Source: a virus
IMG/VR virus record: IMGVR_UViG_3300022745_000084
Coordinates: 1 to 39,196 of that record
Strand: one strand, 5' to 3'
Length of the DNA stretch: 39,196 nt
The notes under the pieces were generated by a model. It worked only from the letters and a program-made list of their open reading frames with translations. It had not been told where the DNA came from and searched no databases. Below, in pieces: positions 5,536-32,170 of the stretch. The first letter of the stretch is position 1; the number at the start of each line of letters is the position of its first letter. The translations under genes and the position numbers were made by a program.

Positions 5536-6056
5536 CAAATATCGAACAAAAACTGAAAGACGCAGCCGAAAAAAGTATCCTAAAAATCATCAGTGATGGC
5601 GGATGGATACAACCTGACTGCGCGAACCGTATCCAACTGCCGCGAGACCTGATGAATGAAGTCTGGGCAATGGTGGACAGGGATACGCTCAAGCTAAAAC
5701 TCAAAGAACGAATCGAGCAAGAACTCGCTGACCGAATCGTGAACCAAATCGCGGCGGAACTATCAACCGACATCAAGCAAGTGTTGTCCGTGCCGGAACG
5801 CCGGGAAGCTGTCCGCGCAATCGCACGCGTACACATGACCGCTATAATGAAAACTGAAAATCCACAAGCCGACCACTGGCAAAAAGCCTACAACGAAATG
5901 GCTGACACTGCGACGGTGCTAATGAACGCGCTCTGCGAAATCCGAGACAAAGCCGACCCATACACGCACCAAATCCACTGGTGCAGGCAAACCGCATCTG
6001 TCGCCATCGAGAAAGCAAACGCCGCACTTCGGCCTAACGAGAAAGGTCATCGATGA
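5532..6056 (+). CDS. Hypothetical helical protein
   Basis: Product of 174 aa. Long amphipathic helices (LKLKERIEQELADRIVNQIAAEL and WQKAYNEMADTATVLMNAL) with charged, coiled-coil-like spacing. No motif or family recognised. ATGA overlaps on both sides place it firmly in the early operon. Confidence 0.6.
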   Translation: MTNIEQKLKDAAEKSILKIISDGGWIQPDCANRIQLPRDLMNEVWAMVDRDTLKLKLKERIEQELADRIVNQIAAELSTDIKQVLSVPERREAVRAIARVHMTAIMKTENPQADHWQKAYNEMADTATVLMNALCEIRDKADPYTHQIHWCRQTASVAIEKANAALRPNEKGHR

Positions 6057-6325
6057 GCGCCGCCAACCAACCATACTCCGAAGCACAAAAAGCCATGATA
6101 AAAAAGTTCAACGCCCATATCCGCGAGGACTCAAGCTCATTCGCTGCACCGTCTTGTTCGGCTCGGGCAATAGAAGGCGAAACGCACGAAATACCTGAAC
6201 GGGAATGCTCAATCTGCAAAGGCAATGGATTCATTGATGTTGAAAAGCATGATCGAGTAGAGCAAGAGGACTGCCGCTGGTGCGGCACAACCGGAATCGA
6301 GCCGAACAAATGTTCCAACGCTTAA
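6053..6325 (+). CDS. DnaJ-type zinc-knuckle small protein
   Basis: Product of 90 aa. The C-terminal half holds CSICKGNG and CRWCGTTG, two CxxCxGxG-like knuckles as in the cysteine-rich domain of DnaJ, with Gly spacing partly kept. There is no J domain. A metal-binding role is likely; its partner is unknown. Confidence 0.6.
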   Translation: MSAANQPYSEAQKAMIKKFNAHIREDSSSFAAPSCSARAIEGETHEIPERECSICKGNGFIDVEKHDRVEQEDCRWCGTTGIEPNKCSNA

Positions 6326-8525: not shown

Positions 8526-9028
8526 GCTTTAAAGAATGGAAGATGGAAGATGTGCAGAAGCACAATGCAAAGATTTCGCGGGCGCGTAGCTCAACGGTAG
8601 AGACGTTGGCTTCCCAACGAGATGCGGGTTCAACTCCCGCCGCGCCCCGCAAACGCAAGCCCGCGTACACGGAGGAACAGGTGCGGGCGTGGTGTGTAAA
8701 ACATAGTTTGCCTGAGCCGGTGTTTGAGTTGCAATTCCACCATACTAGGAAGTGGAGGTTTGACATTGCGTGGACTGAAATTAGAGTCGCAAAACATTCA
8801 GACGGAACTGAGGACACGGATTTTCGATTCACATTTAGCGGCGTTGCTATTGAGATTCAGGGGGGGATTTGGGTTGGCGGAGGTCATAGTCGCGGAGCGC
8901 AAATGAAAAAGGATTGGGAGAAGTGGATGGAAGCGCAGCGGCTAGGATGGAAGATGGCGTGGTGCGAACCGAAAGATTTGCTAAGGGACGCGACGGCTAG
9001 AATAGTGCTTGATTTATTGAGCGCATGA
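8522..9028 (+). CDS. PD-(D/E)XK-like nuclease with an embedded tRNA-like segment
   Basis: Product of 168 aa; ATG 8522 has AAAGGAAAGC just upstream. The C-terminal domain (about 50-168) reads 'RKWRFDIAW', 'VAIEIQGGIWVGGGHSRG', 'EKWMEAQRLGWKMAWC'. This is the order of small phage nucleases of the Vsr/DUF559/Holliday-resolvase-like superfamily, with Asp in FDIAW and Glu in AIEIQ as catalytic candidates. The usual second acidic/Lys position is Gln here. Residues about 20-45 (RARSSTVETLASQRDAGSTP) are encoded by the tRNA-Gly-like sequence at 8580-8648 and are not expected in homologues. Confidence 0.7.
   Translation: MSFKEWKMEDVQKHNAKISRARSSTVETLASQRDAGSTPAAPRKRKPAYTEEQVRAWCVKHSLPEPVFELQFHHTRKWRFDIAWTEIRVAKHSDGTEDTDFRFTFSGVAIEIQGGIWVGGGHSRGAQMKKDWEKWMEAQRLGWKMAWCEPKDLLRDATARIVLDLLSA
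8580..8648 (+). tRNA. tRNA-Gly-like sequence inside a coding region, anticodon arm abnormal
   Basis: Acceptor arms GGGCGCG (8580-8586) and CGCGCCC (8641-8647) pair fully. D arm GCTC-AACGGTA-GAGA and T arm GCGGG-TTCAACT-CCCGC are canonical apart from one D-stem mismatch. The anticodon stem CGTTG/CAACG (8604-8608/8615-8619) encloses only six bases (GCTTCC), and the whole is 69 nt, about two short of a normal tRNA-Gly. The TTCC/TTCCC region resembles a UCC or CCC glycine anticodon. No CCA is encoded. It may be a decayed tRNA, a tRNA-derived attachment site, or an unusual functional tRNA. Confidence 0.6.
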
Positions 9029-12424: not shown

Positions 12425-12616
12425 CTAGACTACGCCAGCGGCGGACTTGGCGTCGGCGCGATATTTCTCGTAGCTCGTCTGCGACACGGCACATAGTTGG
12501 TTCACTTCGTCAAGCGTGAGTGAATCTTTGTGCCACACGGCGGACAGCTTGGGGATGAGTTCAAGCGCGGTCGGACCAAGCGTGAGAATCAGTTGGGTGA
12601 TGATGGCGGCGGACAT
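12425..12616 (-). CDS. Small protein with hydrophobic N-terminus
   Basis: Product of 63 aa. The N-terminal 18 residues are hydrophobic (MSAAIITQLILTLGPTALEL), and a charged helix follows. TAATG coupling to the lipoprotein gene upstream and a one-base gap to the DUF1353 gene. It might be a pinholin-like or lysis accessory protein, but no family signature is visible. Confidence 0.55.
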   Translation of the reverse strand: MSAAIITQLILTLGPTALELIPKLSAVWHKDSLTLDEVNQLCAVSQTSYEKYRADAKSAAGVV

Positions 12617-12963
12617 TATTTTTCCTCCTGTGTGATGAGTTGAACCAAACCGGATTGCGATGCGACGAGGGCGGCAGAAGCTTGTTCCCAGCCCGTCTTA
12701 TCCTTTGAGATGACAGCGGCGTTGTACGCCTGCAATGCGGTGTTGAACGCCACCTGATACTTTTTGTATGCAATCTGCACGTTTATTTCGCGGATGTTAT
12801 TGTCGGCAATTCCCATGCGAACGGAATACGCTTCCCATCCTTTCATTGCGCTATCGGCGGTTTGGGCGATGGTGATGAGTGATTTGCCTGCGGCGTCTTG
12901 CCAAGTGGTAGCACAGCCGCACAGATAGCAGGCAACGAGAGCGGTGAGAAGGAAGTTTTTCAT
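12616..12963 (-). CDS. Lipoprotein, spanin-like candidate
   Basis: Product of 115 aa. MKNFLLTALVACYLCGCATT is a lipoprotein signal with lipobox L-C-G-C (Cys at about 17). The mature chain is helical (AAGKSLITIAQTADSAMKGWEAY, then YQVAFNTALQAYNAAV). An outer-membrane lipoprotein among small membrane genes suggests an o-spanin or superinfection-exclusion protein. The length is on the long side for an Rz1 type, and no clear inner-membrane spanin partner is adjacent. It is the first late gene after the plus-strand insertion of block A. Confidence 0.65.
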   Translation of the reverse strand: MKNFLLTALVACYLCGCATTWQDAAGKSLITIAQTADSAMKGWEAYSVRMGIADNNIREINVQIAYKKYQVAFNTALQAYNAAVISKDKTGWEQASAALVASQSGLVQLITQEEK

Positions 12964-13018
12964 AGACGTTTAGACTTAGTGACTTGTACTTCATTTTAAA
13001 TTTAGTTGCAACTTTTTC

Positions 13019-13047
13019 TTGCGTTGATTGGGTTCGTTGTGTATTGT
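13019..13047 (+). promoter_or_regulatory. Candidate promoter for block A
   Basis: TTGCGT at 13019-13024, a 17-bp spacer and TATTGT at 13042-13047. It stands in the 130-bp gap between the leftward lipoprotein gene and the first plus-strand gene, just before the first attC-like hairpin. The short palindrome AGTTGCAACT followed by a T run lies about 13004-13017; nothing else is evident in the gap. Confidence 0.4.
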
Positions 13048-13055
13048 TTTCCTGT

Positions 13056-13165
13056 GATTAACGCAGAACTGAGCGAACCGCCGACCAAATAATATGAAAC
13101 AACCTGAGACTCTAGCGAACAAAAGCGAAGCGCCAACGGCGGTTCGCTCCGGTGACTGGTTAGGT
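13056..13165 (+). repeat. attC-like imperfect hairpin 1
   Basis: A 13-bp perfect inverted repeat (GAGCGAACCGCCG 13071-13083; CGGCGGTTCGCTC 13137-13149) encloses 53 bases. Outside it CAG (13064-13066) pairs with CTG (13156-13158), and TAAC (13059-13062) with GTTA (13159-13162), separated by asymmetric unpaired bases. The right end, GTTAGGT at 13159-13165, matches the attC simple-site consensus GTTRRRY; the left end GATTAAC differs from RYYYAAC at one base. On the minus strand it reads NQSPERTAVGA, a peptide I recall from dispersed Verrucomicrobiota repeats. Confidence 0.5.
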
Positions 13166-13423
13166 GACTTCGTGAACCAACTCCATGAGCGCAAGGCAAA
13201 GCTCCGCAAAGGTGCAAAGACTGTGTGCAACATGGAAACAATGGTGCTTCGACATCTGCCGACCGTCGAAATCCAAGTGAGCGCCCGCAAATGGCTGCCG
13301 CTGAAAATGCCAACTGACAACTGGTATTTTGAAACCAATGAACAGCGCGACGAAATGCTGGAACTGCTCACCGGCAAGCTGCTCGCAAAGGCAATGTCAC
13401 CTAACGCCAAAGTGAGCGAATGA
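13094..13423 (+). CDS. Hypothetical protein, cassette-like gene
   Basis: Product of 109 aa. The first about 22 codons lie inside attC-like hairpin 1 and may be untranslated or recently added; no in-frame ATG lies nearer than residue 47. The body (GDWLGDFVNQLHERKAKLRK, then METMVLRHLPTVEIQVSARKWLPL and NWYFETNEQRDEMLELLTG) looks like a genuine small alpha/beta protein. No family recognised. Two attC-like hairpins bracket it, so it has the form of an integron gene cassette of about 332 bp. Confidence 0.55.
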   Translation: MKQPETLANKSEAPTAVRSGDWLGDFVNQLHERKAKLRKGAKTVCNMETMVLRHLPTVEIQVSARKWLPLKMPTDNWYFETNEQRDEMLELLTGKLLAKAMSPNAKVSE

Positions 13424-13497
13424 CCACCGCGCCCCAGATGCCCGGATTCACGAAAACCGTCAACGCGGTGGTCATTCGCTCGACTGCCGGGTTCGGG
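13399..13497 (+). repeat. attC-like imperfect hairpin 2
   Basis: An 18-bp perfect inverted repeat (GAGCGAATGACCACCGCG 13414-13431; CGCGGTGGTCATTCGCTC 13464-13481) with a 32-base loop. Outside it AGT (13411-13413) pairs with ACT (13483-13485) past a single bulged G at 13482, and AAC (13403-13405) pairs with GTT (13491-13493). The left box ACCTAAC (13399-13405) fits RYYYAAC exactly; the right box GTTCGGG departs from GTTRRRY. The stem starts with the same GAGCGAA as hairpin 1. It could instead act as a terminator, but there is no T run. Confidence 0.5.
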
Positions 13498-13562
13498 TGT
13501 CCGGACAGAAAAGCCAATGAAATCAAGGCTCTGGATGATGTGAAAATAAATGCCGATTTCGC

Positions 13563-13590
13563 TTGCAATACCCAGCGATGGGTATATGAT
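13563..13590 (+). promoter_or_regulatory. Promoter with palindromic spacer, possibly leaderless
   Basis: TTGCAA (13563-13568), a 16-bp spacer, then TATGAT (13585-13590). The palindrome ATACCC-AGCGAT-GGGTAT (13568-13585) fills the spacer, as expected for a repressor site. The ATG at 13597 is seven bases after the -10, where transcription would start, so the mRNA may have no leader. There is no ribosome site before that ATG. Confidence 0.45.
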
Positions 13591-13596
13591 TAAGCC

Positions 13597-13869
13597 ATGA
13601 AAACGAAAATCAATCTGGCGTGGGTAAAAAACCTCAACGAAGTCGGCAGCCCAATCCGCAACGGTGCGGAGATCGTAGCCAATCAAATCGAAGCCGCCGA
13701 CAAGCGGCTCAAGGAAGCGCAGCAACTCCATGCGGAGTGCCTCGCTGAAATCAAGCGGCAAGCCTCCGGGCTGGAGCGGGAAATCGCCCGGCTCTGGACA
13801 CCCGCCGAAATAGACGCGGCCAAGCGCGGCGTGATGCTGCTCGAAGATGGCCGGGAGGTGGTGCTGTGA
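13597..13869 (+). CDS. Coiled-coil hypothetical protein
   Basis: Product of 90 aa. Helical, with a coiled coil (EAADKRLKEAQQLHAECLAE, then GLEREIARLWTPAEIDAAKR). No family recognised. First gene of a three-gene set ending with the PAPS-reductase-like gene; the junction to the next gene is GTGA. Confidence 0.6.
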   Translation: MKTKINLAWVKNLNEVGSPIRNGAEIVANQIEAADKRLKEAQQLHAECLAEIKRQASGLEREIARLWTPAEIDAAKRGVMLLEDGREVVL

Positions 13870-14042
13870 AGTGCCCGCACTGCGGCGGCGAGATAAATCC
13901 CGCCGCCCTCCTCGGCAGCATGAGCAGCCCGACCAAGGCGCGGGCTGCTCGTGCAAATGCAAAACTCGGCGGCTGGCCGAAAGGAAAGCCGCGAAAACCT
14001 AAACGCGCCGCCCGGCACTCGAACGAAAAAGTCCAGCCATGA
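13866..14042 (+). CDS. Small zinc-knuckle protein with GKxGGxPKGK motif
   Basis: GTG start at 13866 (GTGA overlap), TGA at 14040-14042 overlapping the next ATG; 58 aa. MKCPHCGGEINPAALLGSMS has one CPHC pair, followed by 'ARAANAKLGGWPKGKPRKPK'-style basic sequence (KARAARANAKLGGWPKGKPR). This matches a frequent phage micro-protein with a CxxC and an 'A..NgklGGRPkk' tail. Likely nucleic-acid binding; function unknown. Confidence 0.6.
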   Translation: MKCPHCGGEINPAALLGSMSSPTKARAARANAKLGGWPKGKPRKPKRAARHSNEKVQP

Positions 14043-14977
14043 GTGCCGCCACCCTGACATCCGAATTGACGAGCAGCCCAGCGCGGCACTCATTGGCTGC
14101 GACGCTTGGTTCTGCCCCGTCAATCAATCCACAAATCGTCTCATTCAGTGGTGGGCAAACGTCCGGCTATATGCTGCGGCGTCTGCTAGATGAAGTCGGC
14201 GCGGAAAATCTGACTGCAATCTTCTGTAACACCGGCAAGGAATATGACGAAACGCTAGACTTCGTGAACGACGTTCAAACCGAGTGGAATGTGCCGGTGA
14301 CGTGGCTGGAATACTGCCGCGTGAATGACGAACACTCATGGCGCGTGGTGAGCTACGAAACCGCCGCTCGCCGGAATGATGCCCGCACGCCGTTCGATGA
14401 AATGCTCGAATGGGGCGGCACGCTGCCGAACGTGCGCGGGCGCGGATGCAGTGGACAACTCAAAGTGCGGACGATGAAACGCTACCTGCTCGCGCACGGG
14501 CTGGAAAAGTGGGATAGCTACATCGGAATCCGCGCTGATGAATCTCACCGCACGCTGGAAATCCTCGCGCAATGTCCCAAATACATCACGCCACACTTCC
14601 CGCTGAATGACGCAGGCGTGATAAAGAAAGACGTGGACGACTTCTGGGATGCTCAACCGTTCAAGCTCAACATCCCGAATCACAAAGGCAACTGCGACCT
14701 GTGCTTCCTGAAAGCGAAATGGAAACGGCTCTCAATCATGCGCGAAGAACCCGCCGCCGCAAACTGGTGGATCGGATGGGAACGGAAGATGAAAGCGCGG
14801 ATGGAAGCTGCCGGAAAACCAACTGGCGGCGCAATGTGGGTGGATGGCGTCAGCTACGAAGGACTGCTCGCGGAATCCCAACACCCCGAATTTGATTTCA
14901 ACGAACAGGACGTGCCCTGCTCCTGTGCGGTCGGTGGCTATCGTGACGCCGACGATGAGGGGCAGAACAATCATTAG
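14039..14977 (+). CDS. PAPS-reductase-family (adenine nucleotide alpha-hydrolase) protein
   Basis: Product of 312 aa. SFSGGQTSGYMLRRLLDE (about 35-52) is the PP-loop of the PAPS reductase/DndC superfamily, which binds ATP or PAPS. 'FCNTGKEYDETLDFV' and 'GCSGQLKVRTMKRYL' (about 136-150) match the later family motifs. 'CDLCFLK' and the terminal CSC resemble the extra Cys of phage members and may bind zinc or iron-sulfur. Phages often carry such genes, without a proven role; sulfur transfer to DNA or tRNA, or altered host sulfate reduction, are possibilities. The first about 30 residues are low in complexity. It is the last complete gene of block A. Confidence 0.8.
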   Translation: MSAATLTSELTSSPARHSLAATLGSAPSINPQIVSFSGGQTSGYMLRRLLDEVGAENLTAIFCNTGKEYDETLDFVNDVQTEWNVPVTWLEYCRVNDEHSWRVVSYETAARRNDARTPFDEMLEWGGTLPNVRGRGCSGQLKVRTMKRYLLAHGLEKWDSYIGIRADESHRTLEILAQCPKYITPHFPLNDAGVIKKDVDDFWDAQPFKLNIPNHKGNCDLCFLKAKWKRLSIMREEPAAANWWIGWERKMKARMEAAGKPTGGAMWVDGVSYEGLLAESQHPEFDFNEQDVPCSCAVGGYRDADDEGQNNH

Positions 14978-15108
14978 ACACAACGGACAATCCTAAAACT
15001 TTGAAAATGCTTCAAAAGCTTCTAGGTCATAAGAGTGTTGAGACGACCATGATATACACTCATTGCGTTGATTTAAACGCCGTAAGAAGCCCACTAGACC
15101 AACTCTAG
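14977..15108 (+). pseudogene. 3' remnant of an integron-type tyrosine recombinase
   Basis: The frame ending at TAG 15106-15108 encodes LKMLQKLLGHKSVETTMIYT then HCVDLNAVRSPLDQL. The LLGH histidine and the active-site Tyr of 'IYTH' are the C-terminal catalytic motif of tyrosine recombinases. The ending 'VRSPLD.L' is what I expect from integron integrases (IntI) rather than typical phage integrases. Only about 43 codons remain; the Arg-Lys-His-x-x-Arg part is absent from the window. The stop shares bases with the stop of the leftward gene at 15105, so the remnant abuts the late operon exactly. Confidence 0.75.
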
Positions 15109-15317
15109 GGCTTATCAATCTTCGTAGTGTTGAAGCTCACGGACTCCGCAGGATTCTGGCGCAGGAATAGCAACACATCCTTCGCCACCGACGCTAGGCA
15201 TATCAGCACGCCTTCTTTCCATGTCATTGAAGTGACGATTGCGCCGACGCCAAAGGCGGTTGCCAACCCCGTCAATAGAGCAACGAACAAGCCTAACTTC
15301 CAATGTTTCCAGTCCAT
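15105..15317 (-). CDS. Two-span membrane protein, holin candidate
   Basis: Product of 70 aa from ATG 15317. 'WKLGLFVALLTGLATAFGVGAIVTSM' and 'WKEGVLICLASVAKDVLLFL' are two membrane segments joined by a short turn, with charged ends (MDWKHWK; NTTKIDKP). Size and topology suit a class II holin. It neighbours a coiled-coil plus membrane protein and a lipoprotein gene on the other side of block A. No family signature beyond topology. Confidence 0.6.
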   Translation of the reverse strand: MDWKHWKLGLFVALLTGLATAFGVGAIVTSMTWKEGVLICLASVAKDVLLFLRQNPAESVSFNTTKIDKP

Positions 15318-15318
15318 G

Positions 15319-15540
15319 TTAATCGTGATGTGCGGTTTCGATGTCTTTGGTCTTGATGTAAACAACGTGCGGCGGGAAGTCGCGATGTTCAGGATGTTGC
15401 ACCCTCATATGTGACTGAAAATTCCGCAAGTTCCATGCAAAGTATTTGCAGAACTGACAGCATAGCTTTGCTGTATGTCTCACTTTGTAAGAGCGGACAG
15501 CAGCGCGGCTAATCGGAAATTGGATTGTCTTTCGAGCCAT
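15319..15540 (-). CDS. C2H2-type zinc finger small protein
   Basis: Product of 73 aa. 'CQFCKYFAWNLRNFQSHMRVQH' has Cys-x2-Cys-x11-His-x4-His spacing, a C2H2-like finger as seen in Ros/MucR-type or phage small proteins. Basic N-terminus. It ends one base before the holin-candidate start. A nucleic-acid-binding role is inferred. About 54 bp upstream without features. Confidence 0.55.
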   Translation of the reverse strand: MARKTIQFPISRAAVRSYKVRHTAKLCCQFCKYFAWNLRNFQSHMRVQHPEHRDFPPHVVYIKTKDIETAHHD

Positions 15541-15594
15541 GTTCGGTAAACGCGAGGCCGGGAATGACTGCGCCCAACCATCGCCATTATCTGT

Positions 15595-15945
15595 TCAACG
15601 AGCAGCGTGTTCATTTGCCTTTTGCGCCTTAGTTATGGCGAACCAAGCGCACGTTGCCGATGACACGCCGCTAACGCCTACAATGACCGCTCCCGCTACG
15701 CAAATGGCCTTCCACGAACCCAGCACAAACGCCCGGTCAGTCTTTAGTGTCAAGATGTCAGAACTGTTACGTTCAACCTCCTTGCGATTGTACTCCGCCG
15801 ATTGCATGGCAAGTGCGAGAGTCTTGGCCGTGTCAATTGACGTATCGGCCAGCTTTCGGGTGATGTGCGTGAGTTCCTCGATAGCCCGCTCAACTGAGTT
15901 GAGCCGGACGGAGTGCGCGGCAGTAGTGTTCTCGTATTCTTTCAT
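15595..15945 (-). CDS. Coiled coil plus C-terminal membrane protein (XhlA-like)
   Basis: Product of 116 aa from ATG 15945. A long helix (SVERAIEELTHITRKLADTS ... AEYNRKEVERNSSDILTLKTD) leads to one C-terminal membrane span (WKAICVAGAVIVGVSGVSSATCAWFAI). This is the layout of XhlA/haemolysin-type lysis accessory proteins. It lies next to the two-span holin candidate. Start overlaps the upstream stop (ATGA). Confidence 0.6.
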   Translation of the reverse strand: MKEYENTTAAHSVRLNSVERAIEELTHITRKLADTSIDTAKTLALAMQSAEYNRKEVERNSSDILTLKTDRAFVLGSWKAICVAGAVIVGVSGVSSATCAWFAITKAQKANEHAAR

Positions 15946-16169
15946 AGGGGGATTGCGTTTTGATAAAAGCGATGGCGGACATGATGCGGTTTGCAACGGG
16001 TCGCCATCGTGTGAATGGAGCAGCCGCAATCCACGCAGAAATGCTTTTTCTTCAAAGCCTGCTTTTCGGCAGACAACTCGCGCAGCCGCTCGCCATCGTC
16101 GGCAACGTGAGCGCGAACCATTTCCCGCTTAATGCGGGTTAGCTCGCGTTCTTTTAATTCGGCGGTCAT
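15942..16169 (-). CDS. Zinc-knuckle small protein
   Basis: Product of 75 aa. A charged helix (TAELKERELTRIKREMVRAH) is followed by 'CVDCGCSIHTMATRCKPHHVRHR', a Cys/His metal site. No family recognised. Coupled to the XhlA-like gene. Confidence 0.55.
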   Translation of the reverse strand: MTAELKERELTRIKREMVRAHVADDGERLRELSAEKQALKKKHFCVDCGCSIHTMATRCKPHHVRHRFYQNAIPL

Positions 16170-16173
16170 TTGA

Positions 16174-16596
16174 CTACGGCTGTCTTTTCTTCGCTGGCGC
16201 AGGCAACACCCCCGGCCTTGGGCGTTCGATGCGCGTCACCGGTTTGACCTGCCCCGAGCCATCAGCTTGTCCGCTGATGATGAAGCCCGGCGATTCCTCC
16301 ACGAAAACATAGTTGGTCATAAACGCGATGGCGTTCGTGTTCGCCAGCTTGAAGGTGCAGGTCACGCTGACGAGGTAGTTGGAACTGCTGTCCACGACAT
16401 ACCCGGCTTGGTAAACCATCGCGGGCGCGCACATCGCAAAGAAGTTGCTCTGCACCGTGGTGAATTGTTCCGGCGTCACGACCGCATTGGTGGCGACGGC
16501 CACCGTTGCCAGAACGTGCTGCCGTTCTTGTTTCTTGGATTGCGCGGATGCGGTCAATGCCACCGCGAGCGTGAGGGCTGTGATGATTGTTTTCAT
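16174..16596 (-). CDS. Exported small protein
   Basis: Product of 140 aa from ATG 16596; the longer frame to 16701 lies inside the tail fibre gene. MKTIITALTLAVALTASAQS is a clean Sec signal peptide. The mature part is beta-rich (NYLVSVTCTFKLANTNAIAFMTNYVFVEESP) and ends in a Pro-rich basic tail (RIERPRPGVLPAPAKKRQP). No family recognised. It starts eight bases after the tail fibre gene, which also has a signal peptide, so it may act with it outside the cytoplasm. Confidence 0.65.
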   Translation of the reverse strand: MKTIITALTLAVALTASAQSKKQERQHVLATVAVATNAVVTPEQFTTVQSNFFAMCAPAMVYQAGYVVDSSSNYLVSVTCTFKLANTNAIAFMTNYVFVEESPGFIISGQADGSGQVKPVTRIERPRPGVLPAPAKKRQP

Positions 16597-16603
16597 AATT
16601 TGG

Positions 16604-19054
16604 TCAGTATGTGCCGATGTAGATTCCATTGATGAACCGCAGGTTGCTGCCAGAAGCCACATCCTCGGTTGCGCCCTGCTGCGCGGTGTCATTCGGGTCA
16701 ATCACCACTGAGCAATTTAAGTCGAGGTATAAAACTGTCGCGCCATTCATGCCCCCCTTGATGACCGGGTAGCCGCCAGCTATCTCAAGCGAGACTGAGC
16801 TTTCTCCGCTGACGAGGGCGGTGCCATCAGATAGAACTCCGACGTCCATTGCTCCAACGCCATTGTCAACATGAAGGGTCGTGACGCCGCCGCTGGAATT
16901 GTAGAAGTTCGCCATGATATATCGGACGTTGTACGCAAGGCGGTCATACACCACGATGCTGTTCGTGCCGGTGAACTGCTCCGTACTTGTAGTGACCGGA
17001 GTCCCAACCTGCACCCGGCCATCATCCACCCAGAGATACGCGGGGGTGTTTGAATTCATTCCGCTGGTTTTGGACGGCGGGCTGATTTTGATGTAGGGAA
17101 CGCTGAATCCGCCGATGTACGTCTTCGAGATTCCGGTGTTGTATTTCTTCGCCACCGAGTTCGTGTAGATGACGTAGTGGCCGTTCTCATCGGGATGGAT
17201 GTTGCCGCCGTCGAAGGTTATCGGCGTTCCCCGGTGGTCAATGTAGGTCGTGTAGTAGCTGGTGTTGGTCGGCCAGTAGTTGTTGAAGTTGGTCAGGTTG
17301 GCGGCGTTGGCGGATAAGCCGCTGTTCGGAATCGAGTGCAACCAGACCTGCATCTGCGGCGAGTTGGTCTTGAAGTAATAAAGCAGGTTGGTCATCCATT
17401 GGATTGCGAACGAGCCGTCGTTGTAACCCATCATCACCTGAATCACGCCGTTGGTGGAGGGGAAGTATTTGAAGCTGCCGAACATCTGCTCCCGGTACTT
17501 GAAATAATTGGAGACGGTCTGCGTCCCTTGGGCGAAATTGTACTCACTGATGTACGGCCCGAAGTTCGTGTCCTCAATCATCCGAATCGGCCACGACTTG
17601 AAGCCGGTGAAGCCTTCGCCGCCCGAGCCGCTGTTGTTGCAAGAGATGGAATCGCCAATGATAAAATGCTGCTGCTGCATCTGCGCGGGATTGGTGATGG
17701 ACGAGCCGCCTCCCGTGCTGGCAATCGTCCAGTTCGTCCTGCTCCCGGTGACGTTGGTGGTCACGGTGATGTTCGCTCCGGCGGTGATGGATGGGAGGTT
17801 GGTGCGATAGGCGGATTCAGTTCTAAGAGCTAGGTTTGTTATGCCGATTTCAGAAGACGTAAACGTAGAATTTCCGGGCGAGCTTCGGTAGGAATATACA
17901 AGCGTGTCGTACGGCCAAGTATCCCCAGAGTTATGCGTGAAAGATGTTGCCCTAACATCATCGTAAACATTCATCGGATTGTTAAACGTGCTTGAACCAT
18001 TCACCGTCAAATTACTATTCAACGTCACCGCGCCCGCGTAGTTATTCGTCAGCGTCTTGGCGAGTATGCCGTTGCTGGTCGTGGTCAGATTTCCGGCGAC
18101 AACTGTTTTTAAAGCGAGATTTGTGACGGCGGTTTCTGAATTTCCCAAAAGCCCGGAATTGCCGAAAGCGGCAACTCCGCTGTACGGAAAACCAGAGTTT
18201 GCAACAGTAAGGTTGGCGACGGTCAATGAATCAATGTTTGTGTGGTTGTTAACGTAGTTTATTACGCCGTTGCTCAAAGCGACATTGCCGGTGAGCGTGG
18301 CGACATTGGATATGGCGATAGATGTGTCGTTGATTGTCCCGTCCGTGTCGAATTGGGCAACTACAGCGTAGATTGAATCGTATCCCGGAACGCGGAAACT
18401 GCCGCCGGAAATTGTCCCGCCCGCGTCCACGTTATTCGTCACATGGATGTTGTTGAAATTAGTCGTGAACGCGCCGCCGCTGGAAAGTGCGTTCGTGGAA
18501 AGCTGCGACCAATTGGTTAGGTTTTGACTGCCCCACTGAACCCGCGCCGCAAGCGTGTTCGTCGCATCCCGCGCCACCTTAATCGCGATGTTCGTCGCCG
18601 TGCTTGCGCTGATGCCTCCGCCGTTCACCATGTCAATCGTCGCAAACTTCGCATCTGCCGACGCCTGCGAATAGGCGAGCGAAGTCGGCCCTAGATTCGT
18701 TGAAGCTGAAATGTATAAGTGCGCGTCAAACGTCGTATCCATCAAGTTCGTTGGAAAGCTGTTCGTGAACACGGTATCAGACAACGGGCCGGACAGCGTG
18801 ACGCGATAGGCATAGCCGACGATTATGTTGGTGACTAGCAGCGTGCCGTTGGTGGTCGTCTGGCGCACGATGGCGTCTGATGCTATCACTGAGCCGTTAA
18901 CAACGCCGTAGGGATACAGCGGTTTTATTGTTACGCGGCGCACGGCAACGGCATTGGTGGTGAAGTCAGCGAACGTCCACAGCGCATTGCCAACGCCCGC
19001 AGAGGCGGTCATGGTGGCGAGCAGAAAAAAGAAAGGGAATAGCCTTTGCATCAT
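16604..19054 (-). CDS. Tail fibre-like protein with SGNH hydrolase domain and signal peptide
   Basis: Product of 816 aa. The N-terminus MMQRLFPFFFLLATMTASAG looks like a Sec signal. Residues about 25-450 are Thr/Asn/Ser-rich fibre-like sequence (TTNGTLLVTNIIVGYAYRV). An SGNH/GDSL esterase domain follows: block I 'IIGDSISCNN' (about 466), block III 'MMGYND' (about 541) and the catalytic pair in 'DGGNIHPDENGH' (about 613-624). The C-terminal part is beta-rich. Phage SGNH domains typically remove acetyl groups from surface polysaccharide. Most likely the receptor-binding or depolymerising fibre. Thr/Asn-rich texture resembles host Verrucomicrobiota secreted proteins. Confidence 0.75.
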   Translation of the reverse strand: MMQRLFPFFFLLATMTASAGVGNALWTFADFTTNAVAVRRVTIKPLYPYGVVNGSVIASDAIVRQTTTNGTLLVTNIIVGYAYRVTLSGPLSDTVFTNSFPTNLMDTTFDAHLYISASTNLGPTSLAYSQASADAKFATIDMVNGGGISASTATNIAIKVARDATNTLAARVQWGSQNLTNWSQLSTNALSSGGAFTTNFNNIHVTNNVDAGGTISGGSFRVPGYDSIYAVVAQFDTDGTINDTSIAISNVATLTGNVALSNGVINYVNNHTNIDSLTVANLTVANSGFPYSGVAAFGNSGLLGNSETAVTNLALKTVVAGNLTTTSNGILAKTLTNNYAGAVTLNSNLTVNGSSTFNNPMNVYDDVRATSFTHNSGDTWPYDTLVYSYRSSPGNSTFTSSEIGITNLALRTESAYRTNLPSITAGANITVTTNVTGSRTNWTIASTGGGSSITNPAQMQQQHFIIGDSISCNNSGSGGEGFTGFKSWPIRMIEDTNFGPYISEYNFAQGTQTVSNYFKYREQMFGSFKYFPSTNGVIQVMMGYNDGSFAIQWMTNLLYYFKTNSPQMQVWLHSIPNSGLSANAANLTNFNNYWPTNTSYYTTYIDHRGTPITFDGGNIHPDENGHYVIYTNSVAKKYNTGISKTYIGGFSVPYIKISPPSKTSGMNSNTPAYLWVDDGRVQVGTPVTTSTEQFTGTNSIVVYDRLAYNVRYIMANFYNSSGGVTTLHVDNGVGAMDVGVLSDGTALVSGESSVSLEIAGGYPVIKGGMNGATVLYLDLNCSVVIDPNDTAQQGATEDVASGSNLRFINGIYIGTY

Positions 19055-28855: not shown

Positions 28856-30187
28856 ATGGAACAAGTCAAATTGACTTCAAACTGTGATTGCGTGGATTCA
28901 AGATTACAACAATTTCAAGCGGCCTATATTGCGGCGGGTGACGACAAATCAAAACTTTCAAAAGTCGCCTTAGAATATCCTGACAAGTGGGGAGAGTTTG
29001 CGGCGGAGCTTGCGAAAGAGGGCGAGAGCGTTTCCGCGATTAACCACTTCCAGCTTGCGGCGGATGTTCACAAGCACGGCTTTGTCCGGGCGTGTGCGGT
29101 GAATGAAATTGGTCGAATCCACGCAAATTCAGGCCAAACCACCGCCGCGCTCGGACACTTCAAACAGGCTCTATCATTCGCTCCAGACCACGCCGGAATC
29201 ATGTGCAATATCGGTCTTTGCCATCGTTGGCAGGGACGGCTAGACGAGGCGGAGCGATGGCTTAAACGCGCCCTCAAAGTGAACCCGTGGGAGTCCAATG
29301 CCGCGCTTGAGTTGTCGTTTGTGAAGATGTTGCAAGGCGATTATCTGGACGGCTTCAAACGCTACGAGACGCGGTTCAGGACGCCGGGCGGTGCGCTCAC
29401 GAAGTTGGTGCGCCCATTCCCGGAATGGGACGGAACGAATGGCACAAAGCTCCTAGTGTACGGCGAGCAGGGCAGCGGTGACATATTCCTGATGCTACGA
29501 TATGCCAAACTGATTAAAGAGCGCGGCGTCCATCAATCGTGGGTGGTTCACGCGCCGATGTTGCCGCTTGTCAAGACGGTGGCTGACATTGATTATGCGT
29601 TTGAACCGGGCGGCACTGAGCCGGACTTCGATTGCCACATCCCCGCCGCTTCGCTCCCACGCCTGTTTGAAACTACGCTGAAAAACATCCCGCCCGCGAA
29701 GTGTATTCCAATGCCGGACGCGGTAGACTATGGCGATGGTTTCCACGTTGGCATTGTATGGCGCGGTAGCAAGGCGCAGGCAAACGACGCCATCCGGTCA
29801 ACGAACTTGAACCAATGGTTACCGGTGCTGAACACGCCGGGCGTGACATTTCATTCGTTGCAGGTGGACGGCGCAGAGGAGCGGTTGGCGTATCCGCAAA
29901 TCACCGCCAGCGAACCGCCGAAAGACTGGCTGGAAACGGCGCGGCGCGTTGCCGGATTGGATTTAGTCATCTCCGTTGATACTTCAATGGTTCACTTGTG
30001 CGGCTCGATGGGAGTCCCGTGTTGGTGCGCCTTGCATTGTAGACCATACTTCGTGTATCCTTTAGTGACAGAAGATTGTCCGTGGTATCCGTCAGTAAAA
30101 CTGTTCAAGCAGGAAAAAGAATATGAATGGCAACCCGTCTTTGAAAGAATAGCAGGTGAGTTATGCAATTTGATGAAGGAAAATTAA
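28856..30187 (+). CDS. TPR plus GT9-like glycosyltransferase
   Basis: Product of 443 aa. Residues about 60-170 hold TPR helices (AINHFQLAADVHKHG; ALGHFKQALSFAPDHAGIMC; DEAERWLKRALKVNPWESNA). The C-terminal domain has 'LLVYGEQGSGDIFLMLRYAKL' (about 200) and 'GLDLVISVDTSMVHLCGSMG' (about 370), matching the heptosyltransferase/GT9-like half of bacterial TPR glycosyltransferases. It likely transfers sugar to a protein or cell-surface glycan. First gene of block B. There is no ribosome site before its ATG. Confidence 0.8.
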   Translation: MEQVKLTSNCDCVDSRLQQFQAAYIAAGDDKSKLSKVALEYPDKWGEFAAELAKEGESVSAINHFQLAADVHKHGFVRACAVNEIGRIHANSGQTTAALGHFKQALSFAPDHAGIMCNIGLCHRWQGRLDEAERWLKRALKVNPWESNAALELSFVKMLQGDYLDGFKRYETRFRTPGGALTKLVRPFPEWDGTNGTKLLVYGEQGSGDIFLMLRYAKLIKERGVHQSWVVHAPMLPLVKTVADIDYAFEPGGTEPDFDCHIPAASLPRLFETTLKNIPPAKCIPMPDAVDYGDGFHVGIVWRGSKAQANDAIRSTNLNQWLPVLNTPGVTFHSLQVDGAEERLAYPQITASEPPKDWLETARRVAGLDLVISVDTSMVHLCGSMGVPCWCALHCRPYFVYPLVTEDCPWYPSVKLFKQEKEYEWQPVFERIAGELCNLMKEN

Positions 30188-30366
30188 AGCCGACACTGCA
30201 TGATGTGTATTCAAAGGCATGGTATGCTTCGTGGATTCATAATTGTGAACACGGATGTTGTCTAACTGCCTACTCAAAGATTAGCGAAGAAGATGCGCTT
30301 GCGATGTTGAATAAAGCAATTGAAACCAGCGTGCCGCCGTGCCAAGAAAACCCATGCAAACCATAA
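30163..30366 (+). CDS. Small hypothetical protein
   Basis: Product of 67 aa; preceded by AGCAGGTGAGTT and overlapping the glycosyltransferase by 25 bp and the methyltransferase by 13. Several Cys (NCEHGCC; PCQENPC) and a helix 'EEDALAMLNKAIE'. No family recognised. Confidence 0.5.
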   Translation: MQFDEGKLKPTLHDVYSKAWYASWIHNCEHGCCLTAYSKISEEDALAMLNKAIETSVPPCQENPCKP

Positions 30367-31190
30367 AAACAAACTTCAATCAAACATCGCTAGTTCCGAC
30401 GCGCTGGGGGCACATGGTCGCGCTGAACTGTGACCCGTTCCAAACGGTTAGCCTCGCGCTTTACGGTGAGTGGGCAAAGGATGAATGCGGAATCATCTGC
30501 TCGCTGATTAAAGAGGGCGATTTCGTTTTAGACGTTGGCGCGAACATCGGCACAATCACCGTTGCGATGGCGAAGCGCGTCGGCAGTACCGGGCGAGTGT
30601 TCGCATTTGAGCCGCAAACGGCGGCTTACTATTGCTTGTGCGGTAACGTCGCGCTGACTCACGCCCTGAGCAACGTCCGCGCACTGAACATGGCGGTGGC
30701 AGATTTTGACGGCGTTATTCAAGTGCCGGTGATTGATGTGAACCAGCCGTTCAACGTCGGCGGAGTGCGGCTCGCTGACCCGGTTTATGACGCGGCTTCT
30801 AACCTGCCCAAAGAAGATGTTGCCTGCGTCAAGATTGATTCGTTGCAACTGCCCCGCGTGGATTTTATCAAGATTGATGTGGAGACGATGGAGGCGAAAG
30901 TTTTGGCGGGGTCGGTGGAGACGGTTAGGCGTTGCCGCCCCGTCATCATGGCCGAGGCTTTGCTGGGTGAGTTGTCTAGCGTTGAGTCGTTGAACGTGGC
31001 TGGCATGATTGCGTTTTTCAAGGAACACAATTATGTTTTCCGCGTGTTGCGGACGGATTTGTTTTCGCCGGACAACATCCGGTATTGCCCTGATAACGTG
31101 TTTCCCGGAGACGACCAAAACATCCTAGCCATCCCAGCGGAGAAACCCAAGCCGGAAGGTTTTGACGACCTGCCCAAACTCATTCCGTGA
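30354..31190 (+). CDS. FkbM-family methyltransferase
   Basis: Product of 278 aa from ATG 30354; a GTG at 30339 is possible. SAM-binding motif I 'VLDVGANIGTITVAMA' (about 59), acidic loop 'FAFEPQTAAYYCL', and 'VDFIKIDVETMEAKVLAG' (about 167) are the FkbM pattern. These enzymes O-methylate sugars or small molecules. Between two glycosyltransferases, methylation of the glycan made by this cassette is likely. GTGA coupling to the next gene. Confidence 0.85.
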   Translation: MQTIKTNFNQTSLVPTRWGHMVALNCDPFQTVSLALYGEWAKDECGIICSLIKEGDFVLDVGANIGTITVAMAKRVGSTGRVFAFEPQTAAYYCLCGNVALTHALSNVRALNMAVADFDGVIQVPVIDVNQPFNVGGVRLADPVYDAASNLPKEDVACVKIDSLQLPRVDFIKIDVETMEAKVLAGSVETVRRCRPVIMAEALLGELSSVESLNVAGMIAFFKEHNYVFRVLRTDLFSPDNIRYCPDNVFPGDDQNILAIPAEKPKPEGFDDLPKLIP

Positions 31191-32170
31191 AGAAGCTTTA
31201 TTATCTAGGCAAGCCTGCTGACGGCTTCGGCTGGGGGGTGGCGAATACCAACCTCGTGCGCGAGCTTTCCAAACTGTGCAATGTAGTAGTTGACGATTCC
31301 AATCGCGACCGCTATGACGCGCCCGTGTTCACGCCGATTGCCGACCATGCGCTAAACCCGATTCGCAAGGTGAAAGCCCCGCGCCAAATCGGCTACTGCT
31401 TCACGGAATGGCCGTTGACGGAGCAGGCGCGGATTAACGCCCGGCGTTATGATGTAATCTTCGCCGGTTCAACGTGGAACACGAAGCAGTTAACGGACGC
31501 GGGCATTAAGCGCGTGGAAACACTGATTCAGGGCGTGGACTTTGAGCGGTTCACGCCGCAGCCGCCGACGGAGCGCAAGGGCTTCGTGGTTTTCAGCGGT
31601 GGCAAATACGAGTACCGAAAAGGGCAGGACTACGTTCTCGCGGCGATGCGTCACTTCATGGCTAACCGTGCCGACGTGGTGTTAATCGCGGCGTGGCACA
31701 ATCCGTGGCCGCAAACAATGGCGAGCATGGCGTCATCGTGGCTGATTAAACACGGCGAAGATTACGCTGGCCTGCCGATGGACAGGGTGATTCAGTTGCC
31801 CGCCATCGCCAACGAAAAGATGCCGCAGATTTACGGCATGGCGCACGTTGGTTTGTTCCCGAATCGATGCGAGGCCGGGACAAACATGGTCATGTGCGAA
31901 TTCATGGCGAGCCAACGTCCGGTGATAGCGTCATACGCGCACGGTCACAAAGATGTTTTAGACTCGTCGCAGTATCTGCTCAAAACCGGCAGCTATGACA
32001 ACGCCGGATGGTTCAACCCAGAACTGTCTGACATAATCACCCACCTAGAACACGCCTACAATCACCGCGAAGGGCTATTAGAGCGCGGCAAAGAGGCTAG
32101 ACGGCTCGTTGAGCGGTTCAACTGGCGCGACGCCGCTTTGCGGGTGTACGCTGCGGCGTTTCCGGGATAG
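31187..32170 (+). CDS. GT4-like glycosyltransferase
   Basis: Product of 327 aa, GTG start (GTGA). 'YYLGKPADGFGWGVANTNLVREL' at the N-terminus; C-terminal Rossmann domain with 'VVFSGGKYEYRKGQDYVLAA' and the EX7E-type motif 'EAGTNMVMCEFMASQRPVIA' (about 227-246) typical of GT-B family 4 enzymes. Donor and acceptor unknown. Its last 53 bases overlap antisense with the end of the small head gene at 32118, so the cassette end is fused tightly to the late operon. Confidence 0.8.
   Translation: MKKLYYLGKPADGFGWGVANTNLVRELSKLCNVVVDDSNRDRYDAPVFTPIADHALNPIRKVKAPRQIGYCFTEWPLTEQARINARRYDVIFAGSTWNTKQLTDAGIKRVETLIQGVDFERFTPQPPTERKGFVVFSGGKYEYRKGQDYVLAAMRHFMANRADVVLIAAWHNPWPQTMASMASSWLIKHGEDYAGLPMDRVIQLPAIANEKMPQIYGMAHVGLFPNRCEAGTNMVMCEFMASQRPVIASYAHGHKDVLDSSQYLLKTGSYDNAGWFNPELSDIITHLEHAYNHREGLLERGKEARRLVERFNWRDAALRVYAAAFPG

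Follow-up and report, generated by a model that had tools for sequence, protein, structure and literature searches.

The stretch of DNA considered here, referred to as the window, is the whole of the IMG/VR virus record IMGVR_UViG_3300022745_000084, a contig of 39,196 nucleotides. It encodes lambda-type terminase, portal and major head proteins (phrog_15, phrog_21 and phrog_617) along with other phage genes and is therefore a tailed phage, with replication genes lying rightward on the left part and head and tail genes lying leftward. Within the leftward late operon, between a lipoprotein gene and a membrane-protein gene, lies a block of about 2.1 kb in which the genes are on the plus strand. 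This block contains five predicted genes, three attC sites and the 3' end of an integron-integrase gene (intI), whilst a fourth attC site lies alone in the early region. The features are as follows, with positions given on the window.

12616-12963, minus strand: lipoprotein gene, the left flank
12964-15108: the insert
13056-13165, minus strand: attC1, R'' ACCTAAC, R' GTTAATC, its ATGA is lost
13094-13423, plus strand: gene of cassette C, 109 codons, no known family, starts in attC1 and stops in attC2
13399-13497, minus strand: attC2, R'' CCCGAAC, R' GTTAGGT, ATGA at 13420-13423 on the plus strand, perfect stem without an extrahelical base
13420-13593, plus strand: 57-codon ORF of cassette B, its start overlaps the previous stop in attC2
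13597-13869, plus strand: KleA/KleC-like gene of cassette B
13866-14042, plus strand: small zinc-ribbon-like gene of cassette B, stops in attC3
14018-14115, minus strand: attC3, R'' GCAGAAC, R' GTTCGAG, ATGA at 14039-14042 on the plus strand
14039-14977, plus strand: gene of cassette A, PAPS-reductase-like, starts in attC3
14962-14968, minus strand: 5' box of cassette A (GTTCTGC), the complement of its own R''
14959-15108, plus strand: intI 3' remnant, with homology from about 14989
15105-15365, minus strand: membrane-protein gene, the right flank, its stop shared with the CTAG at the end of intI
6032-6162, minus strand: attC4, solitary, in the early region, ATGA at 6053-6056 on the plus strand
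6053-6325, plus strand: gene of solitary cassette D, starts in attC4, cassette 5' box GTTCGGC at 6307-6301

The insert and its genes

The limits of the insert are set by a related phage, L147 (a contig of 38,082 bp), in which the lipoprotein and membrane-protein genes are 56% and 76% identical to those of the window and are adjacent, with the membrane-protein stop overlapping the lipoprotein start as ATGA. The insert is therefore 12964-15108, 2,145 bp, and L147 presents a precise empty site. No attC was found by the covariance models described below at E 0.001 in the whole L147 record, or in five other records found by terminase or portal-side similarity. The right edge of the insert is the stop codon of the intI 3' end, and the neighbouring phage gene now takes its stop from the same CTAG.

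The intI remnant matches TIGR02249 (3e-8, 33.4 bits, profile positions 279-315 of 315) over about 39 codons (14989-15108), and scores better with IntI than with XerA, XerC and XerD (29.2, 28.6 and 24.9 bits). Only this 3' end of intI is present in the window, which thus has no functional integron-integrase gene, and no attI was recognised on reading the sequence by eye, without an attI model. A search of the window with the Phage_integrase family finds only the intI remnant, so this phage may be virulent or use a host recombinase, whilst its relative G005 has a tyrosine-integrase-like gene (L093, 7600-8691), judged by its sequence alone.

Of the genes of the insert, the KleA/KleC-like gene matches PF17383 (5e-9) and the PAPS-reductase-like gene matches phrog_424 (7e-49) and PF01507 (6e-6). 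The family match of the zinc-ribbon-like gene is weak, although it has homologs of 43-70% identity in other phage contigs, and the 57-codon ORF has homologs of 44% identity in the viral contigs G426 and G409 that also start inside an attC. No homolog of the 109-codon gene was found in viral contigs, 387 Verrucomicrobiota genomes, plasmids or phages, but codon usage supports it as a gene (0.30 log2 per codon) and does not support the overlapping 323-codon minus-strand frame (-0.04). Searches for relatives with two tail-region proteins found none in the viral scans or, for one of the two, in the phage records, and no DNA similarity to phage records was found. Elsewhere in the window a tRNA gene lies on the plus strand at 8580-8648, and a second plus-strand block (28856-32170; TPR protein, methyltransferase, glycosyltransferase) stands inside the leftward late region, the TPR and glycosyltransferase genes of which are also found in the related phage G408 (49% and 62%).

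The attC sites

Integrons are frequent in Verrucomicrobiota, with 107 of 387 genomes passing the IntI cut-off. Strict regular-expression scans for attC missed the sites in the window and found few chromosomal ones, thus covariance models were used in their place. The first model, R1, was built from 27 attCs of Verrucomicrobiota assemblies, chosen by regular expression from loci L097-L171 with a pattern that matches 6 of the 387 genomes, and 9 of its 15 pairs show two-sided changes. Over the window with filters off, R1 gives four clear hits, all on the minus strand: attC1 (43.4 bits), attC3 (36.6), attC2 (36.6) and attC4 (29.4), with the next hit at 14.5 bits. The E-value of the best site is 3e-10, although E-values rest on a short calibration and are rough, and eight other phage sources give no hits. 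On 13 chromosomal regions R1 gives 148 matches at E 0.001, a few of which are opposite-strand twins. A second model, R2, built from 23 viral attCs without those of the window, agrees, giving 29.4 bits for attC1, 54.8 for attC2, 77.9 for attC3 and 51.5 for attC4.

The initial annotation had noted an insertion of plus-strand genes in the late operon, two attC-like hairpins with a gene between them, and an IntI-like 3' end at the far side, and this observation is confirmed, albeit with corrections. The two hairpins, attC1 and attC2, are attC by covariance model and fold better than most shuffles (z -2.45 and -6.08 on the minus strand, -2.11 and -5.38 on the plus strand). However, they read as attC on the minus strand, with plus-strand R1 scores over the same places of only 7.4 and 12.4 bits, so that the plus-strand reading is rejected and the outer boxes belong to the opposite polarity from the one that had been assumed. 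Two further sites, attC3 and the distant attC4, had been missed, the gene between the hairpins starts inside one attC and ends inside the next, and the IntI homology covers about 39 codons rather than 43. Folded as single-stranded DNA, attC1, attC2 and attC3 are better than shuffles (z -2.3, -5.0 and -2.6), but attC4 is not (z +0.74). With three attCs within 1.1 kb and no complete intI, the insert fits the definition of a CALIN, an attC cluster lacking an intact integrase.

Cassette boundaries and gene orientation

In integrons the first bases of a cassette complement its own R'' box. Within the window cassette A starts at GTTCTGC (14968-14962) with R'' GCAGAAC, cassette B at GTTCGAG with CCCGAAC (6 of 7), cassette C at GTTAGGT with ACCTAAC and cassette D at GTTCGGC (6307) with GCCGAAC. 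Chance matters for A and D, as these 7-mers occur 3 times per strand and 8 times on the minus strand of the window, respectively. Across viral arrays R'' fits the cassette's own start better than the box in place in 62 cassettes and worse in 11, of 96 testable (61 and 11 in the non-redundant set), and chromosomal arrays behave alike (54 and 5 of 110). This is the mark of units exchanged at the box.

The viral arrays were found with an exact pattern for this attC type, in which the plus strand reads AACG, 13 bases, ATGA, as it does in attC2, attC3 and attC4 of the window, where the TGA ends the upstream gene and the ATG starts the next. The pattern occurs in 34 stretches on 33 IMG/VR contigs, whilst a complemented control pattern occurs in none and there were no pattern hits in shuffles. 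Of these 34, 20 join two open frames of at least 40 codons, some others being cut by the end of the stretch examined. The 141 viral attCs (134 distinct sequences) and 133 chromosomal attCs used for statistics were selected by hand from overlapping lists of 133, 164, 148 and 133 model matches, leaving out opposite-strand twins, rows from the window and some weak rows. As the viral loci were picked by the ATGA pattern, the 107 viral attCs not matching it are the fairer set. Of these 107, 17 show a stop/start overlap, against 4 of 133 chromosomal attCs (Fisher 8e-4), and on the opposite strand the same test gives 8 of 141 and 1 of 133. A frame of 60 or more codons that enters in the AAC phase and stops in the site is found in 45 of 107 against 15 of 133 (7e-8). 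Part of the phase bias follows from where stops lie in the attC sequence, so it is the count and not the bias that is the evidence. The site thus codes C-terminal tails such as PNEKGHR, SNEKVQP or QNEKGQR.

The five predicted genes of the insert lie against the attCs, unlike a canonical cassette, in which the gene runs in the same direction as its attC and the attC follows the gene. By codon usage both decided cassettes of the window are antisense. In viral arrays, of which the 25 of 34 loci with two or more attCs at usable distance enter the counts, 52 cassettes are antisense, 4 sense and 49 undecided of 105, whereas in chromosomal arrays 37 are sense, 1 antisense and 82 undecided of 120. With a codon model trained on window genes only, viral arrays give 57 antisense, 7 sense and 41 undecided, and chromosomal arrays 54 sense, 3 antisense and 63 undecided; in non-redundant sets the figures are 57 antisense against 7 sense of 102 and 52 sense against 3 antisense of 114. 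The one chromosomal antisense case of the first count is in locus L245 (2189-14060; Verrucomicrobiota assembly G379), a prophage-like region with inverted attC cassettes including a DNA-methylase-like gene, where genes weakly similar to phage terminase and portal lie on either side (24% and 26%), so it is probably a prophage in this phylum. Plain ORF length is less clear and proved misleading as a measure of polarity: by the strict rule it calls viral cassettes 31 antisense and 20 sense, chromosomal ones 74 sense and 9 antisense, and both window cassettes sense, the last because of the 323-codon frame.

Related phages and cassette content

Of the 33 viral contigs searched, 6 match TIGR02249, of which one is over the cut-off (G408, 353 bits), two reach 229.5 bits (G426 and G428) and three are weak or partial, leaving 30 of 33 with no full-length IntI. 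G408 is related to the phage of the window (terminase 48%, major head 57%) and has six attCs (minus strand, 12814-15754) directly left of an intact intI (plus strand, 15980-16948), with plus-strand genes such as a C5 DNA methylase between them, which is the layout of the window with intI whole. G428 carries a zinc-ribbon-like gene, attC and PAPS-reductase gene in the same order as the window. Terminase, portal or major head genes are found on G408, G426, G424 and G403, and terminase on G412 and G419. By model R1 the longest arrays in the stretches examined have 15 attCs (L198), 12 (L189), 10 (L182) and 8 (L194), unusually many for phages. The intI remnant of the window is 57% identical to G408 IntI over 37 residues, less than its identity to some bacterial IntI (up to 70%), and an IntI tree leaves the phage proteins on long branches and does not place them.

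Nineteen antisense cassette proteins were scanned, 18 taken from among the longest of 63 ORFs called antisense and one (L257, 13670-14515) added by hand, and 16 match known families: N6/N4, MT-A70 and C5 DNA methylases and two further DNA methyltransferases, a Mom-like protein, PAPS reductase, RNA ligase, AAA, helicase loader, acetyltransferase and one of unknown function. Many are DNA-modification enzymes, although a role against restriction is inferred. The host is likely to belong to Verrucomicrobiota, as suggested by the R1-type attCs, an R2 match in 52 of 387 genomes and the prophage-like region of G379.

Integron parts in phages are already known. Qi et al. 2023 (PMC9892861) report 3 complete integrons, one In0 and 17 CALINs in 10,705 phage genomes, describe phages that carry pieces of host integrons, and found five of six tested phage attCs to be recombined by IntI1 with attI1. 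The cassettes in TJE1 and PH101 are described as oriented in the same direction, typical of bacterial arrays, and models R1 and R2 hit none of TJE1, P12002L or the first 50 kb of H101. The phage record Rctr41k (KX853513; L274, 4680-10101) has an IntI-like protein (43% to G408 IntI) with weak attC-like hits beside it (best 21.3 bits), possibly an unannotated integron, but there hits and genes lie on the same strand, the usual gene polarity. The sedentary chromosomal integrons of Verrucomicrobiota share with the window attC sequence and structure, the polarity of attC relative to intI (as in chromosomal locus L137) and a cassette start complementary to its own R'', but differ in that their genes run with the attC and that few of their attCs hold the ATGA overlap. 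Literature searches for phage integrons, inverted orientation and attC with stop/start codons listed nothing on the architecture seen here, although they did not cover preprints and most subscription journals and, PMC9892861 aside, rested on listings.

Interpretation

The best explanation, held with fairly good confidence, is that the insert is a decayed phage-borne integron with inverted, translation-coupled cassettes. Reading leftward it consists of the intI 3' end, cassette A (attC3), cassette B (attC2) and cassette C (attC1), with cassette D (attC4) sitting alone in the early region. The polarity of attC relative to intI is the usual one, but the genes point the other way, toward and along with intI, starting inside or after their attC and ending inside the next. 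In this view an integrase, once phage-encoded as in G408 or else that of the host, would move the cassettes by the normal folded-single-strand attC route, and because the reading frame crosses the exchange point in a fixed phase, a cassette could be set before another without breaking either gene. As intI is broken here, the array would be fixed or depend on a host IntI. The attCs, gene polarity, stop/start overlaps, cassette boundaries, intI remnant, empty site and the relatives with the same layout are all demonstrated by the analysis, whereas the excision, insertion and movement of cassettes in phages, the integrase that acts and the coupling of translation and expression are inferences from sequence alone. 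Several findings sit less easily with this reading, namely the shortness of the intI remnant and its closer identity to some bacterial IntI, the IntI tree that does not place the phage proteins, the lack of a recognised attI, the poor folding of attC4, the lack of the extrahelical base in attC2 and of the ATGA in attC1, the ORF-length counts and the scarcity of full-length IntI in the viral contigs.

The initial annotation proposed that integron material, probably from a Verrucomicrobiota chromosome, had entered a phage genome, and this interpretation is partly supported. It is right that integron material lies inside a phage, with attCs matched by a model of Verrucomicrobiota attCs and a recombinase remnant that scores best with IntI, and it thereby survives the two conditions that had been set to refute it, the absence of attC model hits and a remnant grouping with ordinary phage integrases. 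That this is simply a piece of a bacterial chromosome, such as an intI end and first cassettes carried in by illegitimate recombination, is not supported and is thought unlikely. Whilst the attC matches, the identity of up to 70% to bacterial IntI and the pieces of host integrons described by Qi et al. favour it, decided chromosomal cassettes are sense by 52 to 3 where those here are antisense, the inverted layout recurs in other phages, one of which has an intact intI beside such an array, the solitary attC4 is left unexplained and the 109-codon gene has no homolog in 387 Verrucomicrobiota genomes. A chromosomal origin of the lineage long ago is not excluded. It was also considered that the intI end might be a phage attachment-site copy of a host gene, but this was set aside since the array lies beside it and G408 has the whole gene in that place.

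It is similarly unlikely, though possible, that the hairpins are no longer recombination sites but fixed RNA or DNA elements of phage operons, translation junctions descended from attC. The stop/start overlap inside the site, the lack of a full integrase in the window and in 30 of 33 contigs, and the departure of attC2 and attC4 from the ideal form would fit such a role, but R'' boxes keep fitting the cassette's own start and not the box in place, which needs exchange at the box, and related cassettes occur in distant phages. Chance hairpins or an assembly chimera are very unlikely. Although the intI piece is short and the contig comes from a metagenome, the E-value of the best site, the absence of hits in eight other phage sources, in shuffles and in the complemented control, and the same layout in G408 all speak against this.

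A bolder reading, about as likely as not, is that there is a phage class of integrons in which attC has two jobs, as a recombination site and as a protein-coding stop/start junction in a fixed frame, with tails such as PNEKGHR or QNEKGQR, then stop, overlapping the next ATG. Genes would become exchangeable, operon-ready modules, many of them DNA-modification enzymes, so a phage could swap its anti-restriction set, and because the mRNA-like strand is also the recombining bottom strand, transcription itself could expose and fold the sites.

Integrons are known as bacterial gene-capture platforms whose cassettes run with the attC and depend largely on one promoter. Phage integrons with inverted cassettes would be a second way to express captured genes, by riding the phage operon and restarting translation at the recombination site. 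This would make it testable whether one short sequence can evolve under two constraints, as a folded recombination site and as coding sequence, and would help explain how phages take up and shuffle DNA-modification genes, and would link phage and Verrucomicrobiota gene pools.
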